NCBI GenBank assembly: GCA_009927165.1
Contig: RFNO01000107.1
Location: 1 to 64,000 of the forward strand
Direction: 5' to 3'
Source of the DNA: Pseudomonadota bacterium
GTDB taxonomy: Bacteria; Bdellovibrionota; FAC87; UBA2466
Length of the DNA stretch: 64,000 nucleotides
The position numbers and the translations under genes are program-made. This document shows, piece after piece, positions 5,274-21,843 of the stretch. Within the stretch, counting starts at the first letter, position 1. Every line of letters starts with the position of its first letter. The notes beneath the pieces are model-generated. The model worked only from the letters and a program-made list of their open reading frames with translations. It did no database searches and was not told the DNA's origin.

Positions 5274-6506
5274 TTAGGTTTCGTTTTTCCAAAGGTCTTC
5301 GATAGATTCACGTTTTCTAATGACGGTTGCAGATTTTCCGGAGACCAATATTTCAGCCGCATTTGGTCGGATATTATAGTGAGACGACATTGAAAAACCG
5401 TAAGCTCCCGCATGACTAATCCAAACTTTATCTCCCGATCCAATCGCGGGCAGTTTGCGACTCAGCCCCAGAAAGTCCGAGGTTTCACAAACGGGGCCTA
5501 CGATATCAAAAGTTTTTTCTCGTGCCTTTGATTTTCGGCAAGGTTGAATCAAATGAAACGCTTCATAGAGCGCTGGTCGTATGAGTTCTGTCATGGAAGC
5601 ATCTAAAATCAGAAAGTTTTTGTGAGGATTTGATTTTGTGAACAGTACTTCTGAGACCAACACTCCTGATTCGGCAACAATCCATCTTCCCGGTTCAACG
5701 ATGAGCGAATAGGGGGTTTTTTTTAGGGGTTTTTGTATCGCAGTAGCATAAGCTTTAAGGGAAGGGACTTTTTCTCCTCGGTAGGAAACACCAAAACCTC
5801 CCCCGAGATCCAGTATCTCAATTGAATGACCCTGGAGTCTCAAGGCGTTTGCAATTTCCACGAGACGTGCTGATGCTTTATGGTAAGGCGTAACTGACTT
5901 GATTTGGCTGCCTAAGTGGCACGAAAGACCAATAAGTTTTAGGACTGGCGAGCCTTGGAGAACGCGTAAAGCTTCAGATAGCTGGCTTTCTGGAATTCCG
6001 AATTTAGTTTTGTAGAGTCCTGTTGCAATGTAGGGATTAGTTTGAACATTAATATTAGGATTTACTCTCAAACAAATGTTAATGGAACTTTTCCGGGTAA
6101 AGCTGCCTAAAATTTTAAGTTCTTCGATTGATTCAACCTGAAAAGAAAAGATCCCAGCCGTTATTCCCGCCAGTAACTCTTCTTTGCGCTTTCCAACCCC
6201 AGAAAAAACAATTTTTTGGGGAGATACGTTAGCAAGAATCGCTTTTTTTAGTTCACCCACTGAAACAACATCGGCTCCCAATCCTTCTCCGAAAATCACT
6301 CGCAGCAGACTAAGATTTGAATTGGCTTTTAATGCATAGCATGCCTGAGTGGGATGATTACTAAACGTTTGCAAAAATTCGCGACAGCGCTGTTTTAGAT
6401 GGGCTTCCGAATAGACAAAGAGGGGAGTGCCGAATTTACTAGCTAGCTCACAAAGTGAAACTTTTTCTAAGTGAGCCTCTTCTCTTTTGTAAATGATAGG
6501 TGTCAT
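5274..6506 (-). CDS. lysA: Diaminopimelate decarboxylase
   Basis: YALKANSN PLP-lysine motif, LDLGGGFGVSY, EPGRWIVAESG, GPVCETSDFLG. Confidence 0.93.
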   Translation of the reverse strand: MTPIIYKREEAHLEKVSLCELASKFGTPLFVYSEAHLKQRCREFLQTFSNHPTQACYALKANSNLSLLRVIFGEGLGADVVSVGELKKAILANVSPQKIVFSGVGKRKEELLAGITAGIFSFQVESIEELKILGSFTRKSSINICLRVNPNINVQTNPYIATGLYKTKFGIPESQLSEALRVLQGSPVLKLIGLSCHLGSQIKSVTPYHKASARLVEIANALRLQGHSIEILDLGGGFGVSYRGEKVPSLKAYATAIQKPLKKTPYSLIVEPGRWIVAESGVLVSEVLFTKSNPHKNFLILDASMTELIRPALYEAFHLIQPCRKSKAREKTFDIVGPVCETSDFLGLSRKLPAIGSGDKVWISHAGAYGFSMSSHYNIRPNAAEILVSGKSATVIRKRESIEDLWKNET

Positions 6507-7258: not shown

Positions 7259-9256
7259 ATGATAATTTCGCCCAGCGTCATGAATCAAAATCGCCAAAAA
7301 TTCAGCTTTTTGCCGACGAATTCCACTGAGATGAAAGCTCGAGGATGGGAACAGGTGGATGTCGTTTTTGTTACTGGAGACGCGTATGTTGACCATCCCA
7401 GTTTTGCAATGGCGATATTGGGTAGAGTGCTTGAACGAGAAGGTTTTCGAGTTGCCATTTTAAGCCAACCAGATTGGAAGTCTTGCGAAGCGTGGAAGGA
7501 ATTTGGGAAGCCAAGATTATTTTTTGCCATTAGCGCAGGAAATATGGATTCCATGATCAATCATTATACGGCCAACAAAAAAGTAAGAAATGATGATGCT
7601 TATTCTCCCGGCGGAAAAATTGGCCTACGACCTGACCGGGCAACTTTGGCTTATTGTCAGAGAGCGAGGGAAGCTTATTCGAGTGTTCCTGTTATCGCTG
7701 GAGGAGTGGAAGCATCGCTTCGCCGGTTGGCTCATTACGATTACTGGAGTGATACTGTAAAGCGCTCGATAGTTCTTGATTCCAAAGCTGACCTTGTTGT
7801 TTTTGGAATGGGAGAAAAACCGATCATTGAAATTGCTCGGCGCTTGAAAAAAGGGGAGTCGGTAAAGCACTTGCGTGACATGCGGGGAGTTGCTTATGCA
7901 TTGGGCGCTAGTGAACCTCGACCAACAGAATTTGAAGGAAGAGCTGCTATCCAATTACCCAGTTTCGATCAAGTCAAAACTGATCGCTTTCAGTTCGCCG
8001 AAGCTACTAAGCTGATACATCTTCACACCAATCCTTTTAATGCTCATTTGCTTATTCAAGATCACGACAAGCAAGCTGTAGTAACAACCCCACCAACTCT
8101 TCCTGTCAGCAAAGAAGAAATGGATGGTATCTATGATTTGCCTTATTCAAGGCGACCGCATCCTCGATACAAAGAACCGATTCCAGCTTACGAGATGATC
8201 AAAGACTCAGTTACTATCATGAGAGGTTGTTTCGGAGGCTGTACTTTTTGTTCGATTACGGCCCATCAAGGAAGAATTATCCAATCTCGATCTCAACAAT
8301 CCATTTTGAAAGAAATAAACAAAATGACCGAGGACTCCCAGTTTAAAGGGACTATCAGTGATATCGGAGGACCAACTGCAAACATGTATGAAATGCGTTG
8401 CACGCGCCCTGATATAGAAAAGAAGTGCCGGAGGCAGTCGTGCGTGCATCCTACCATTTGCAAACTTTTAGGAACCGATCACGGTCCCTTAGTAGATCTG
8501 ATGAAAAAAGCGCGTAATCAGCCTGGAGTGAAAAAGGTTCTGGTGGCCAGCGGTATTCGAATGGATCTGGCTCAGCTTTCAGAAGAGTACATGAACGAGC
8601 TAGCAGCTCATCATGTAGGCGGATTATTGAAGGTGGCGCCTGAACACTCCGAAAAAGAAGTTCTTAATCTCATGAAAAAGCCCGATGCAGAGAACTTTGA
8701 AACCTTTTCTACAGAGTTTAGAAAAGCGACTGAAAAAGCCGGAAAGCCGAAACAATACATCGTTCCGTATTTTATTGCCAGTCATCCAGGTTCTTCTGTT
8801 GAAAGCATGATTGAGCTTGCGTTATTTTTGAAAAGAAACGGATACAAACCGGATCAAGTGCAGGATTTTATTCCAGCTCCATTTGATGTTGCTACCTGTA
8901 TGTACCATACGGGTTTGGATCCCTTCACAAAAAAAGAAGTATACGTCGCCAAACATTTGCGCGAACGAAAAGTTCAAAAAGCCCTTCTTCAGTTTTTTAA
9001 ACCCGAAAACTATTTTGAAGTAAGGAAGGCTCTAGAAGCTGCGGGCCGAACCGACTTGATTGGGCAGGGTTGTGACGCTCTCATTCCAGCGGTTGCTCCC
9101 AGAGAAGCTCTAGAGAAGCGGAGGAGTATTTCTGCAAAAATGCTGCGCGGAGAGTTTGTTCATCGAGTACAAACTCCTCCGCGAGCCAATAAGGGATACC
9201 GACCGAATCGTCCCACTGCTGTGAGACGAGACTTAACTTTACAAGCTTTGGTCTGA
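7259..9256 (+). CDS. YgiQ/UPF0313-type radical SAM protein (actual start may be 7280)
   Basis: TGDAYVDHPSFAMAILGR, radical SAM CFGGCTFCSI, KQYIVPYFIASHPG. Confidence 0.93.
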   Translation: MIISPSVMNQNRQKFSFLPTNSTEMKARGWEQVDVVFVTGDAYVDHPSFAMAILGRVLEREGFRVAILSQPDWKSCEAWKEFGKPRLFFAISAGNMDSMINHYTANKKVRNDDAYSPGGKIGLRPDRATLAYCQRAREAYSSVPVIAGGVEASLRRLAHYDYWSDTVKRSIVLDSKADLVVFGMGEKPIIEIARRLKKGESVKHLRDMRGVAYALGASEPRPTEFEGRAAIQLPSFDQVKTDRFQFAEATKLIHLHTNPFNAHLLIQDHDKQAVVTTPPTLPVSKEEMDGIYDLPYSRRPHPRYKEPIPAYEMIKDSVTIMRGCFGGCTFCSITAHQGRIIQSRSQQSILKEINKMTEDSQFKGTISDIGGPTANMYEMRCTRPDIEKKCRRQSCVHPTICKLLGTDHGPLVDLMKKARNQPGVKKVLVASGIRMDLAQLSEEYMNELAAHHVGGLLKVAPEHSEKEVLNLMKKPDAENFETFSTEFRKATEKAGKPKQYIVPYFIASHPGSSVESMIELALFLKRNGYKPDQVQDFIPAPFDVATCMYHTGLDPFTKKEVYVAKHLRERKVQKALLQFFKPENYFEVRKALEAAGRTDLIGQGCDALIPAVAPREALEKRRSISAKMLRGEFVHRVQTPPRANKGYRPNRPTAVRRDLTLQALV

Positions 9257-16806: not shown

Positions 16807-18834
16807 ATGCCTCTTACTCGGCTTCCTGAATCTCCGTTAAAACGTTTGTGGCATGCCATTATTGGAACCGCAAAAGATCCCCATGATCCCAATCTCACCC
16901 ATCAACTTTCCTTAGTGGCATTTCTGGCCTGGGTGGGACTTGGTGTAGATGGACTTTCATCTTCTGCGTATGGTCCTGAAGAAGCTTATCGTGCTTTGGG
17001 GAGTCATACTTATTTGGCAGTGATGCTGATGATTGCCACTAGCTTCACAGTGCTCGTGATCTCAGTTGCCTATAGCAAACTCATTGAGCAGTTTCCACAT
17101 GGTGGGGGGGGCTACCTGGTAGCTACTCAAATTTTAGGGAAATCTCCCGGAGTGATCTCGGGCTGTGCTCTTCTGGTTGATTATGTCCTCACAATTACGG
17201 TATCGATTGCGAGCGGTGGCGATGCAATTTTCAGTTTATTACCGTTAGATCTCCAGCCGTACAAATTGCCGTTCGAAGCTTTTGCCATTTTATTTTTGGT
17301 CTTCATGAATATGAGAGGACTAAAAGAATCGGTAAAAGTTATTGTTCCTTTCTTCCTGTTGTTCATTGTGACTCACGCCATTGTCATTTTTGGAGGAATT
17401 GGAATTCACTTGAGTGATTTTCCGGCCCTTTATGAAAGAACAAAAGCTGGCTATGAAAGTGGAATTTCCACTATGGGAAAATGGGGACTGTTTTTGTTGT
17501 TTTTAAGAGCCTATTCGTTTGGGGGTGGAACTTACACCGGTATTGAAGCGGTTTCCAATGGGGTAGGAACTCTGCGTGAACCCCGTGTTGCGACGGGAAA
17601 AAGAACGATGGCTTATTTGGCCCTTTCGCTCTCAATTACTGCAGGTGGCTTACTCCTTTGTTACATGTTGTACCAAGTGGTTCCAGTCGAGGGAAGAACC
17701 CTGAATGCTCTTCTAGTAGACCAGTTTGCGGGGCATTGGGAATTTGCAGGCATTCCTATTGGTAAGGGATTTGTTTGGGCAACCGTTTTCTCGGAATGTG
17801 TGCTTTTATTTGTGGCCGCTCAAACTGGTTTTATCGATGGTCCTCGAGTTATGGCAAACATGGCAGTGGATTCGTGGCTCCCCCGACGGTTTGCAGCTCT
17901 TTCGGATCGTCTTACTATGCACAATGGAATTTTTATTATGGGATTGGCCGCTTTGGCCACTCTTCTCTACACGCAAGGGCACATCACTTTATTGGTGGTG
18001 ATGTACAGCATTAATGTGTTCATTACTTTCTCCATGACAGAAGCTGCTATGGTCAAATTCTGGATTTCTGAGCGAAAAGACCGACCTAACTGGAAAAGTA
18101 ATCTAGCGTTACATAGTGTTGGATTTCTCCTTTGCTTCTCTATTCTGTGGGTGATGATTTTGGAGAAGTTTTTAGAAGGTGCTTGGGCAACAGTTGTTAT
18201 TACATCTGTTTTTGTTTTTTTAGCCTTTGTAATCAAACGACACTACTTGAAAATTGGTCAGAGAATTAAGCATATCGAAGGAAAAATTCGCGAAGTAACC
18301 CGACATCCGAAAGAGGGAGCCACGCCGTACGTTCCTGAGTTTGATCCGACTGAACCGGTGGCAGCTATTTTAGTAGGGGGCTATAGCAAGTTAGGCCGTA
18401 GGAGCCTTCTTGCAGTGCTTAGAGCTTTTCCTAAAACATTTAAGAATGTTGTTTTTCTGTCTGTGGGAGTTGTAAATTCCGAATTCTTTCATAAAGGTGA
18501 TGTCAGTGCTCTCGAGCACCGGACAGAAGAAACATTGAAAGGGTACGAAGGTATCGCAAATCGGTTGGGGTTGGCGGCTCGTCATGCTTTTCGAATTGGA
18601 ACTGATGTCGTTCAGGAAGCATCCCAACTTTGCCTAGATGTTTCCAAAGATTATCCCCAAGCCATTTTCTTTGCGGGAGAGTTGGTTTTTGAAAACCCGC
18701 ATTGGTTTGACCGATTATTACATAACGAAACTGCTTATGCGATTCAGAGACAAATTCGGCATGCAGGTCTTGCTATGGTCATCCTGCCACTCGTTTTACA
18801 TGAAGAGGAACCCCAGCCTTCCGAATTACCTTGA
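16807..18834 (+). CDS. APC-superfamily permease, KimA-like, with large cytosolic C-terminal domain
   Basis: GVDGLSSSAYGPEE, FPHGGGGYLVATQILGKSPGVISGCALLVDYVLTITVSIASGGDAI resemble KimA/YdaO-type K+ importers. Confidence 0.85.
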   Translation: MPLTRLPESPLKRLWHAIIGTAKDPHDPNLTHQLSLVAFLAWVGLGVDGLSSSAYGPEEAYRALGSHTYLAVMLMIATSFTVLVISVAYSKLIEQFPHGGGGYLVATQILGKSPGVISGCALLVDYVLTITVSIASGGDAIFSLLPLDLQPYKLPFEAFAILFLVFMNMRGLKESVKVIVPFFLLFIVTHAIVIFGGIGIHLSDFPALYERTKAGYESGISTMGKWGLFLLFLRAYSFGGGTYTGIEAVSNGVGTLREPRVATGKRTMAYLALSLSITAGGLLLCYMLYQVVPVEGRTLNALLVDQFAGHWEFAGIPIGKGFVWATVFSECVLLFVAAQTGFIDGPRVMANMAVDSWLPRRFAALSDRLTMHNGIFIMGLAALATLLYTQGHITLLVVMYSINVFITFSMTEAAMVKFWISERKDRPNWKSNLALHSVGFLLCFSILWVMILEKFLEGAWATVVITSVFVFLAFVIKRHYLKIGQRIKHIEGKIREVTRHPKEGATPYVPEFDPTEPVAAILVGGYSKLGRRSLLAVLRAFPKTFKNVVFLSVGVVNSEFFHKGDVSALEHRTEETLKGYEGIANRLGLAARHAFRIGTDVVQEASQLCLDVSKDYPQAIFFAGELVFENPHWFDRLLHNETAYAIQRQIRHAGLAMVILPLVLHEEEPQPSELP

Positions 18835-18942
18835 GGAAGGGGTGGGAACGGCGGCCGTTTTACCGCCATTCCCGGGGGGAGACATCATGCAAAACAGCTT
18901 TCAAATAAAGAGACGTCTCTCACCGAGAATTTGTGACGAAGT

Positions 18943-19707
18943 TTAAAATAACTTAAGCTGGGTTAGTGCATCCATCGATAAGGCCTGAGCTCGTTCGGAA
19001 GTGACAGGCTCTTTACTTCCAGAACCTTTTGTCATGAGCGTCACAAAAGTCCAACTTTCCTTTTGATTCCTGAGCTGTCCAACAAACCAGGCCGTTTCTG
19101 CGTCTTCACCCTTTTGTCCCCAAACCTCAATGCCAGCTCTATACTTGCCAATATAGAAAAGCTTTTTGGTTAACGCCCAGCTTGTGGATTTTACTTGCAC
19201 CGCTTCCTGGAAAAAAGTTTCTGCAAAAGCCAATTGCTTTACTGGAGACATTTTTAACTCTCTTGGATCTGTGCTTTCATTTCCATATCTAAACATAGAA
19301 AGATACTTTTTGAGTGGCTCTTTCCCAATTTGACGGGTTAGTCTTTCGGTTACCCAATCCACGCGATTCTGAATCCAATCAACGGCGAATTGATCTTTAT
19401 TCCAAGTGGGATTCTCATAGTGAGTTCCATCCCATTTAAAAAGGGTCTTCTCATCTTGGAGAAGTCCTAAATCATTTGCGATCAGGGTCAGTGGCAAATA
19501 AAAAGTCTGATTGGGAGATACTTCTTTTGAGCAAACTCTCCCCCCCCATTTTAAGTCGGTGTTTTTTGAAAGTGAGTTCTTAAGAAGGAAACAGGCCCTT
19601 TCCCCCTCGAATACTTCAGCTATCTTATTTGTGGAATGAGCTGGTAGCGATAAAGCCGTTAGGCTTAACAAAGACGACAGGAAACAAAGGCTTGTAAAAA
19701 AGTTCAT
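18943..19707 (-). CDS. Secreted class D beta-lactamase-fold protein with degenerate active site
   Basis: Co-linear with OXA enzymes: FKWDG, KKYLSMFRYGN, WFVGQ retained. STFK replaced by QTFY, SxV by NRV, KTG by KYR/RAG. Confidence 0.75.
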   Translation of the reverse strand: MNFFTSLCFLSSLLSLTALSLPAHSTNKIAEVFEGERACFLLKNSLSKNTDLKWGGRVCSKEVSPNQTFYLPLTLIANDLGLLQDEKTLFKWDGTHYENPTWNKDQFAVDWIQNRVDWVTERLTRQIGKEPLKKYLSMFRYGNESTDPRELKMSPVKQLAFAETFFQEAVQVKSTSWALTKKLFYIGKYRAGIEVWGQKGEDAETAWFVGQLRNQKESWTFVTLMTKGSGSKEPVTSERAQALSMDALTQLKLF

Positions 19708-20975
19708 TAGACCACCCAAAAGAACATAATAGTCACTAATGTGGGTAAAATAGCATAAACGAAAAGTTTTGTAGGGCTAATTCCTTCAGGACCAAACGTA
19801 GAATTTAAAATCGAAAAACCAGCTGGGTTGGGTGCATTTGCAATGACAGTGAGTCCGCCCCCAGTGACGGCCCCGGCGACGAGCGCATATTTTAGTTCGT
19901 TTGTAATGTGAGGAACTTGAGACCCTAAATAGGTAAGAGCTGCATTATCAAGAAAGGCTGTCAGTCCCGTACTACCGAAATAGAGTGCCGAAGAAGAAAG
20001 AGAATTGAGCAGAGGCTCTAACCACCATCTTTGGAAACTACCTAAAACGACCAGCCCCCCCAAGAAAAAGCTGACTAAGAGGCTTTCTTTAATCTTAAGA
20101 TCGATTTGGTGTTCTTTGGTAATGCTGACTAATCCCAAGAAAAACAAAAAGAGTCCTATAAAAATAACTGCATGGTGTGCAGAAAGAGTCACTAGAGAAA
20201 GAAATAGGACATGAATCGCTATCAGCCAAATGGGTGTTTTTCGGTCGTCTGAAGCCAAGCTCGCCTGTAGAGCCGACAACTCCTTGCGGAATAAAGCCCC
20301 TAAAATAAGGGAGTTCAAAAACACAGTGAGAGCAGCTCTCCAACCAAAATGAGCCAGCATAAAGCTGAGATCCCAACCCCATTGGGAACTGACCATAAGA
20401 ACGGGAGGGGCGGCATAGGGCGTAAGAGTGCCTCCAATGGAAATATTTACGAAAAGTACGGCTAAAGTAAGATACTTGAAGGATTCGCTCTGAGTTCTAT
20501 CAAAAAACCTATCTTTGAGAATAAAAGCAGTCACTGTCATGGCGGCAGGCTCTGTGATTAAGCTACCAAACAATGGCCCTAAAGTAAGTGTGGCGATTAA
20601 GAAAGAGCAGTCTTTACCTAAAGGTAACCAACGACTGACCCATGAGATTAATCGTTGAGTAATCGAAAGAATGGGTTTTGTTGCAGCCATTGTCATGATT
20701 ACAAAAACGAATAGAGGCTCATTAAAGTTAAGAGATTCCAAGTGTTCAAGAACTGTGCTTCCTCCGGTAAGGCTTGCTAGCAACAACAAAAGCCAAAAAG
20801 ACCAAAACCCAAAGACAATTTCTACTTCCCCAAGAAGATGAAAGAGATTTTCTAATAAGCTGCCGTCGGGAAATTTTTGCGCCAAATGCTGAAACCATTT
20901 TATGGCAAAAGAGTGAATAACTGCTACAGCGAGAAATACTGCCCCTAAAAGTTCGGACACACCGGGATTGTTCAT
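19707..20975 (-). CDS. Putative Na+/H+ antiporter
   Basis: Multi-TM; TLGPLFGSLITEPAAMTVTAF, NISIGGTLTPYAAPPVLM, LDNAALTYLGSQ, VTGGGLTVIANAPNPAG. Confidence 0.85.
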   Translation of the reverse strand: MNNPGVSELLGAVFLAVAVIHSFAIKWFQHLAQKFPDGSLLENLFHLLGEVEIVFGFWSFWLLLLLASLTGGSTVLEHLESLNFNEPLFVFVIMTMAATKPILSITQRLISWVSRWLPLGKDCSFLIATLTLGPLFGSLITEPAAMTVTAFILKDRFFDRTQSESFKYLTLAVLFVNISIGGTLTPYAAPPVLMVSSQWGWDLSFMLAHFGWRAALTVFLNSLILGALFRKELSALQASLASDDRKTPIWLIAIHVLFLSLVTLSAHHAVIFIGLFLFFLGLVSITKEHQIDLKIKESLLVSFFLGGLVVLGSFQRWWLEPLLNSLSSSALYFGSTGLTAFLDNAALTYLGSQVPHITNELKYALVAGAVTGGGLTVIANAPNPAGFSILNSTFGPEGISPTKLFVYAILPTLVTIMFFWVV

Positions 20976-21037
20976 ATCGTCATTCTACCGAACATGGCAT
21001 GACCTATGCACTCATTTTTCACAGAAGGAGTTATTTG

Positions 21038-21364
21038 ATGAAGTTTAGATTTAAATCATGCCTAGTTGGGTTTTTTTCACTCTTTATGAGTTTATCTGTC
21101 AGCGCAAATTGCATTCGGGACCTTGGACCCTATGAGGATCAATACGGATTTGCCATTTTTCCTTTTTTAAATACTTGCGATGAAGCGGTGACAGTAAATC
21201 TTTGCGTAAAATCCTTTCCCGCAGGAAGAAATCGTGCGGTTTTCAATCTTTATTCAGGTTCGGGGAGTGGAAGGAACACGATCTACATCACTGATGGCAA
21301 ATGGAAAGACTATTATTCCTATCGTTGGATGGAAAATGCCAGCGTAGAGTGTCCTTTCTACTAA
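21038..21364 (+). CDS. Small secreted Cys-containing protein, unknown function
   Basis: Signal peptide MKFRFKSCLVGFFSLFMSLSVSA; short mature domain with paired cysteines. Confidence 0.6.
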   Translation: MKFRFKSCLVGFFSLFMSLSVSANCIRDLGPYEDQYGFAIFPFLNTCDEAVTVNLCVKSFPAGRNRAVFNLYSGSGSGRNTIYITDGKWKDYYSYRWMENASVECPFY

Positions 21365-21390: not shown

Positions 21391-21843
21391 ATGATAACCG
21401 AAGCAAGAAAGATGGAATATGCGGCACAACCCACTTCTGAGGAATCGCTCACCATTATTCAGAAATACGTTTTATTAAGAGCCCATCCCAGGAGATTGTT
21501 TCTCGATGTAGCAGCGCTCATCTGGGAAGTTTACTTTCTTTGGAATCAAAACTGGAAGGCAGCTCTCGGGGTTTTTCTGGCCATGAATACCGTAGGGCTT
21601 TTGGCAGTGAGAAAGATTAACTATCAAGAGTTTGCAAAAACCACTTTAGGCAAGATGGCTCTTCTGCATCTTCATCCCATGAATCTAACAATCCAGCTAG
21701 TGGGTGCAACTTTGAGCATTTACGGTATTTGGTGGCATGACACTTTAACGGTGTTGACTGGTATAACTCTTCTCTATGTTGGTCACTTTTATGGTTGGTC
21801 GCGCGTTCATCCCTCGCTAAAAATGAAGGAACGGTCAGCTTAA
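21391..21843 (+). CDS. Hypothetical membrane protein
   Basis: Two hydrophobic hairpins; AHPRRLFLDVAALIWEVYFLWNQNW. Confidence 0.6.
   Translation: MITEARKMEYAAQPTSEESLTIIQKYVLLRAHPRRLFLDVAALIWEVYFLWNQNWKAALGVFLAMNTVGLLAVRKINYQEFAKTTLGKMALLHLHPMNLTIQLVGATLSIYGIWWHDTLTVLTGITLLYVGHFYGWSRVHPSLKMKERSA

Follow-up and report, generated by a model that had tools for sequence, protein, structure and literature searches.

In a group of freshwater Bdellovibrionota, an antibiotic-degrading fold looks to have been reused as a non-enzyme that is co-produced with a sodium/proton transporter. Within the window (the 64,000-nucleotide stretch of DNA analysed here), the gene occupies the minus strand from an ATG at 19707 to a stop codon at 18945–18943. 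Judged by profile matches and alignment, its 254-residue product is a class D β-lactamase homologue over its full length, and comparison with relatives shows that none of the residues on which acylation and deacylation of Ser depend is left. Serine β-lactamases and penicillin-binding proteins have been studied almost wholly as Ser-acylating enzymes, and a class D member that lacks Ser chemistry and whose conserved surface appears to have moved would show what the fold is capable of beyond acylation.

Homology to class D β-lactamases

The reading frame is intact from ATG to stop, as an earlier note on this DNA had claimed, and the plus-strand translation of 18943–19707 contains stops throughout. 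The earlier note had also proposed a class D fold and suggested an HMM search as a check, and significant matches to both class D and Transpeptidase profiles bear this out. The main NCBIfam class D model, NF012161, matches residues 29–253 on profile positions 2–235 of 236 (E = 5.9e-28), the closest sequence match among solved structures is OXA-1 (1m6k, E = 5.1e-23), and Pfam Transpeptidase matches above its cut-off (E = 3.6e-15). As sequence comparisons go, these values are far beyond chance. The NF012161 score of 97.8 bits is nevertheless far below the 250 bits that NCBI has curated as the cut-off for naming a class D enzyme, and a match to a class D model is, taken alone, no evidence of β-lactam resistance. 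AlphaFold2 models built on an alignment of four orthologous sequences are of low confidence (mean pLDDT 54 for the whole protein and 69 for the mature protein). Fold searches with these models return OXA enzymes and BlaR1/MecR1 throughout the top 50, at TM < 0.45 and an rmsd of about 15, which agrees with the sequence result, the models themselves proving no geometry.

The N-terminus (residues 1–23, 19639–19707, minus strand) is likely to be an export signal peptide. The claim of such a signal in the earlier note stands in part: by eye and by hydropathy scan there is a hydrophobic stretch at residues 2–20, but the n-region contains no basic residue. C39 and C59 are kept, a pair of cysteines that is shared with the other class D proteins of the phylum and present in all 30 active class D rows compared; this is in line with an exported protein residing in an oxidising compartment.

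Loss of the catalytic motifs

Alignment with relatives places the former SxxK motif at Q67-T-F-Y70 (19498–19509; this and the following features are on the minus strand) and the former SxV motif at N114-R-V116 (19360–19368), both substitutions being as first read from the sequence. The former KTG motif aligns at Q198-K199-G200 (19108–19116; WGQKG versus SGKTG). Its original assignment to KYR or RAG fails, since both occur too early in the sequence, and they are ruled out as the KTG site by the alignment. YGN (residues 141–143, 19279–19287), previously described as a kept structural motif, is present in the window species but gone from the other three orthologues, and the segment that follows it, which bears a conserved A-W-L in active relatives, is deleted in the aligned sequences of all four. 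In OXA enzymes this A-W-L segment carries the omega-loop Trp (the OXA-10 Trp154 region).

No catalytic Ser or Lys is found at motif 1 in any of the three orthologues that cover it (a further one, L011, begins after motif 1). The nucleophile position in these three is Q, D or E and the Lys position is Y or L (QTFY, D..L and E..L), and the equivalents within the genus are NRV, NQV and HQV for SxV and QKG, QKA and IRG for KTG. The Q, Y and N substitutions, whose conservation among orthologues had been put forward as a check, therefore do not hold in their exact letters. Since Q and Y vary among orthologues they are not a new catalytic set, and the idea that Q/Y/N make up a new, conserved active site is ruled out. 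Because neither the catalytic Ser nor the catalytic Lys is present in the alignment, class D-type covalent Ser chemistry is excluded for the pseudoenzyme.

Orthologues and purifying selection

Among the 379 genomes of the phylum that were searched, 57 contain a class D match. All four genomes of the window's genus examined carry one pseudoenzyme copy each and no second class D gene, and the pseudoenzymes of the four species form one clade with support of 100/100. The other three orthologues, all metagenome-assembled, lie on CAMCTJ010000003 (L009), RFNT01000240 (L010) and RFNV01000270 (L011), and in two of the four species the gene is cut by a contig end. The source assemblies of L010 and L011 are labelled Lanier, which we presume to be a freshwater reservoir. 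The window genome has five other Transpeptidase-domain matches, all in proteins of larger size, which fits penicillin-binding proteins. A search of genome contigs with the pseudoenzyme protein alone returned no close relatives, the same search with the four-sequence alignment returned only the three species already known, and a search of viral contigs returned no relatives.

The gene is under strong purifying selection in the closest pair, G001 and G002, where dN/dS, an estimate suggested in the earlier note, is 0.058–0.069 by three methods; synonymous sites are saturated in all other pairs, and dN/dS was used for this pair only. In the same two genomes, five genes nearby give 0.02–0.09, a range that includes the pseudoenzyme, and a value similar to that of the neighbours indicates that the gene is maintained. 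This supports the previous reading of a maintained pseudoenzyme, as do its intact occurrence across four species, the single fully supported clade and the loss of the catalytic residues with no motif-bearing orthologue. The outcomes named in advance as refuting that reading were absent: a fold-family match is present by HMM, no orthologue has STFK and no frameshift is seen. One-off decay is ruled out, the motifs being missing in all four species and the frames intact.

Outside the genus, SxxK is kept in 56 of 58 distinct class D proteins of the phylum (duplicates removed). The two exceptions, L056 (G142:C4:171209-172477) and L059 (G143:C77:1308-2564), represent a second degenerate lineage with SLFE for SxxK, N-A-G for SxV and KFG or KYG for KTG. 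This lineage shares the loss of class D motifs within Bdellovibrionota, but it differs in that the Ser, the YGN motif and the Trp of the omega loop are all kept, and in coexisting with an active-type class D copy elsewhere in the same genome (both G142 and G143). It is placed on a separate branch, in another part of the tree than the genus clade, so class D motifs were lost at least two times in the phylum.

Shift of conservation

The share of invariant columns among the window, L009 and L010 proteins was compared with that in 56 triples of active enzymes from the phylum with a comparable mean identity; the active triples overlap, so the comparison gives a range and not a p-value. The pseudoenzyme falls outside the entire active range in six regions, being lower in motif 1 (0.18 versus 0.32–0.73), residues 129–148 (0.05 versus 0.25–0.55) and residues 149–181 (0.09 versus 0.21–0.52), and higher in residues 81–96 (0.75 versus 0.25–0.62), residues 97–113 (0.53 versus 0.12–0.47) and residues 229–254 (0.65 versus 0.15–0.35). 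On this sequence comparison, conservation in the pseudoenzyme is inverted, with motif 1 and the YGN/omega region now the least conserved, an observation that is new here.

Two segments with conservation far above that of active relatives are candidate binding surfaces, namely residues 81–113 (GLLQDEKTLFKWDG...WNKDQF..DW; 19369–19467, minus strand) and the C-terminal residues 229–254 (ERAQALSMDALTQLKLF; 18946–19023, minus strand). A joint surface formed by both is a candidate only, the models being too low in confidence for surface mapping. Residues that are invariant specifically in the pseudoenzymes include Q84, K87, L89, F107, D110, K188, R190, E194 and W196, and further E233, P234, E238, Q241, M245, T249 and F254. 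Such an inversion leads to a direct, testable prediction of the partner-binding site.

Gene neighbourhood

Directly upstream of the pseudoenzyme, and on the same strand, is a gene for a Na+/H+ antiporter (19707–20975, minus strand; PF07399, E = 1.2e-164), the stop codon of which overlaps the pseudoenzyme start codon in the sequence TAATG (19705–19709, minus strand; ATGA for the G001 orthologue, L009). A stop–start overlap is found in both species where the two genes are assembled together. The two genes each reach contig ends in G002, compatible with the same order. No antiporter was detected in G003, where the contig ends inside the pseudoenzyme gene and the upstream side is unassembled. The arrangement was seen only in the window's genus: other genera of the family have the antiporter with no class D gene behind it where the downstream flank is assembled, and in the rest of the phylum no class D gene was found beside the antiporter among genomes with both positions listed. 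The PF07399 antiporter is present in 30 of 59 sampled genomes, and its wide occurrence without the pseudoenzyme implies that it has no general need for such a partner.

A gene for a KimA-like K+ transporter (16807–18834, plus strand; E = 1.2e-61 to KimA 6s3k) takes the place that Kup has in the other three species; the window species is without Kup, and the other three carry Kup and are without the KimA-like gene. In both species with both sides assembled, the pseudoenzyme is flanked by Na+ and K+ transport genes.

Proposed function and alternative explanations

We propose that the pseudoenzyme is probably an exported, periplasmic, non-catalytic protein that binds another protein through residues 81–113 and the C-terminal 26 residues. 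The class D fold has lost its Ser acylation and deacylation chemistry, with the gene retained in the genus, and the exported protein would now act in the periplasm through the two segments where constraint lies; it is because the constraint has shifted that a partner-binding role is suggested. This proposal draws on four species. Because the two genes overlap, the antiporter is a tentative guess at the partner, and the pseudoenzyme might then, speculatively, take part in Na+/K+ homeostasis as its accessory or regulatory subunit. The fuller version, in which the class D fold has been turned into such a subunit of the PF07399 antiporter, located in the periplasm and with the FKWDG/WNKDQ and C-terminal segments as its binding surface, seems to us rather doubtful. 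It is possible, with considerable reservation, that the protein serves as a scaffold or in the envelope, with a partner unrelated to the antiporter, and that the gene overlap only sets the expression level. This is a narrower form of the binder proposal and the probabilities of the two overlap. It gains from the many antiporters that occur without a pseudoenzyme, and from the fact that in compact genomes start/stop overlaps often join genes with no relation to each other, which limits the binder proposal as well; it is harder to reconcile with an antiporter–pseudoenzyme order that is intact in both species where it can be seen and that fits the contig ends in a third.

A new enzymatic activity, with new catalytic residues (for example D110, K188, R190 and E194) on the same fold, would account for several charged residues that are invariant in the four species and mostly absent from active relatives, and migrated residues gave activity in other supposed pseudoenzymes (PMC10211241). 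We consider it unlikely, given that the groove region (motif 1, YGN and the omega segment) is unconserved, that the nucleophile site varies and that the C-terminal segment is among the most conserved parts and carries no class D catalytic motif. The earlier note had offered a sensor, a peptidoglycan-binding protein or a scaffold. A scaffold or accessory role fits better, whereas the variability of the pocket region, the highest in the protein, speaks against a sensor or peptidoglycan binder that uses the old pocket. Non-covalent sensing or binding of peptidoglycan fragments or β-lactams in the manner of BlaR1/MecR1 is quite improbable, even though the sensor domains of both proteins have the class D fold, serve in signalling and not in hydrolysis, and match the pseudoenzyme: the acylated Ser that both need is absent here, conservation is lowest at the former ligand site, and there is neither a transmembrane signalling domain nor an adjoining regulator gene. 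Least probable in our judgement is a relic under weak constraint, a gene that lost its catalytic function in the ancestor and has been undergoing slow decay since. The stem branch of the clade is indeed long, at 2.28 changes per column, and the identity between the window species and G001 is lower for the pseudoenzyme (47%) than for the neighbouring antiporter (64%) and gltX (83%), but no stop or frameshift occurs in four species, dN/dS in the closest pair is 0.06–0.07 and two segments are conserved beyond what is seen in active enzymes.

Relation to known systems

With class D (OXA) β-lactamases the pseudoenzyme shares full-length homology and the FKWDG and WNxD segments, but it is without SxxK, SxV and KTG, and the omega-loop Trp segment is deleted. 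Like the BlaR1/MecR1 sensor domains, it would be a case of the class D fold being used for something other than β-lactam turnover. Those proteins keep Ser and Lys, are acylated and are fused to an N-terminal membrane protease domain, whereas the pseudoenzyme is a single-domain protein of 254 residues with Q67 in place of the acylatable Ser. Pseudoenzymes as such are a known kind, including pseudokinases, pseudophosphatases and pseudo ADP-ribosyltransferases (PMC10211241), and they share with the present protein the loss of catalytic motifs and the retention of family membership, often having become binding or regulatory proteins. A search of the open-access literature found no paper on a pseudoenzyme from the class D family, which on this scope is a new case.

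Further observations around the gene

An Rfam search around the pseudoenzyme gene gave no RNA element match, promoter scan matches were at or near chance, and terminator scan matches exceeded chance by about two standard deviations at most. The K+ transporter has been swapped in place (KimA-like at 16807–18834 in the window versus Kup at 8929–10842 in L009 and 712–2625 in L011), one type per genome standing between gltX and the pseudoenzyme. In three species a GGGAAyGGCGG hairpin adjoining a GGGGGAGACA stretch (window 18840–18880, L009 8800–8840, L011 583–625) separates the pseudoenzyme from the K+ transporter gene despite the different transporter, and is possibly a shared terminator or repeat. 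For two small genes at 20999–21364 and 21391–21843 of the window, neither Pfam nor NCBIfam gave a significant match; the latter gene has a counterpart at 6175–6618 in L009 and is thus shared within the genus.
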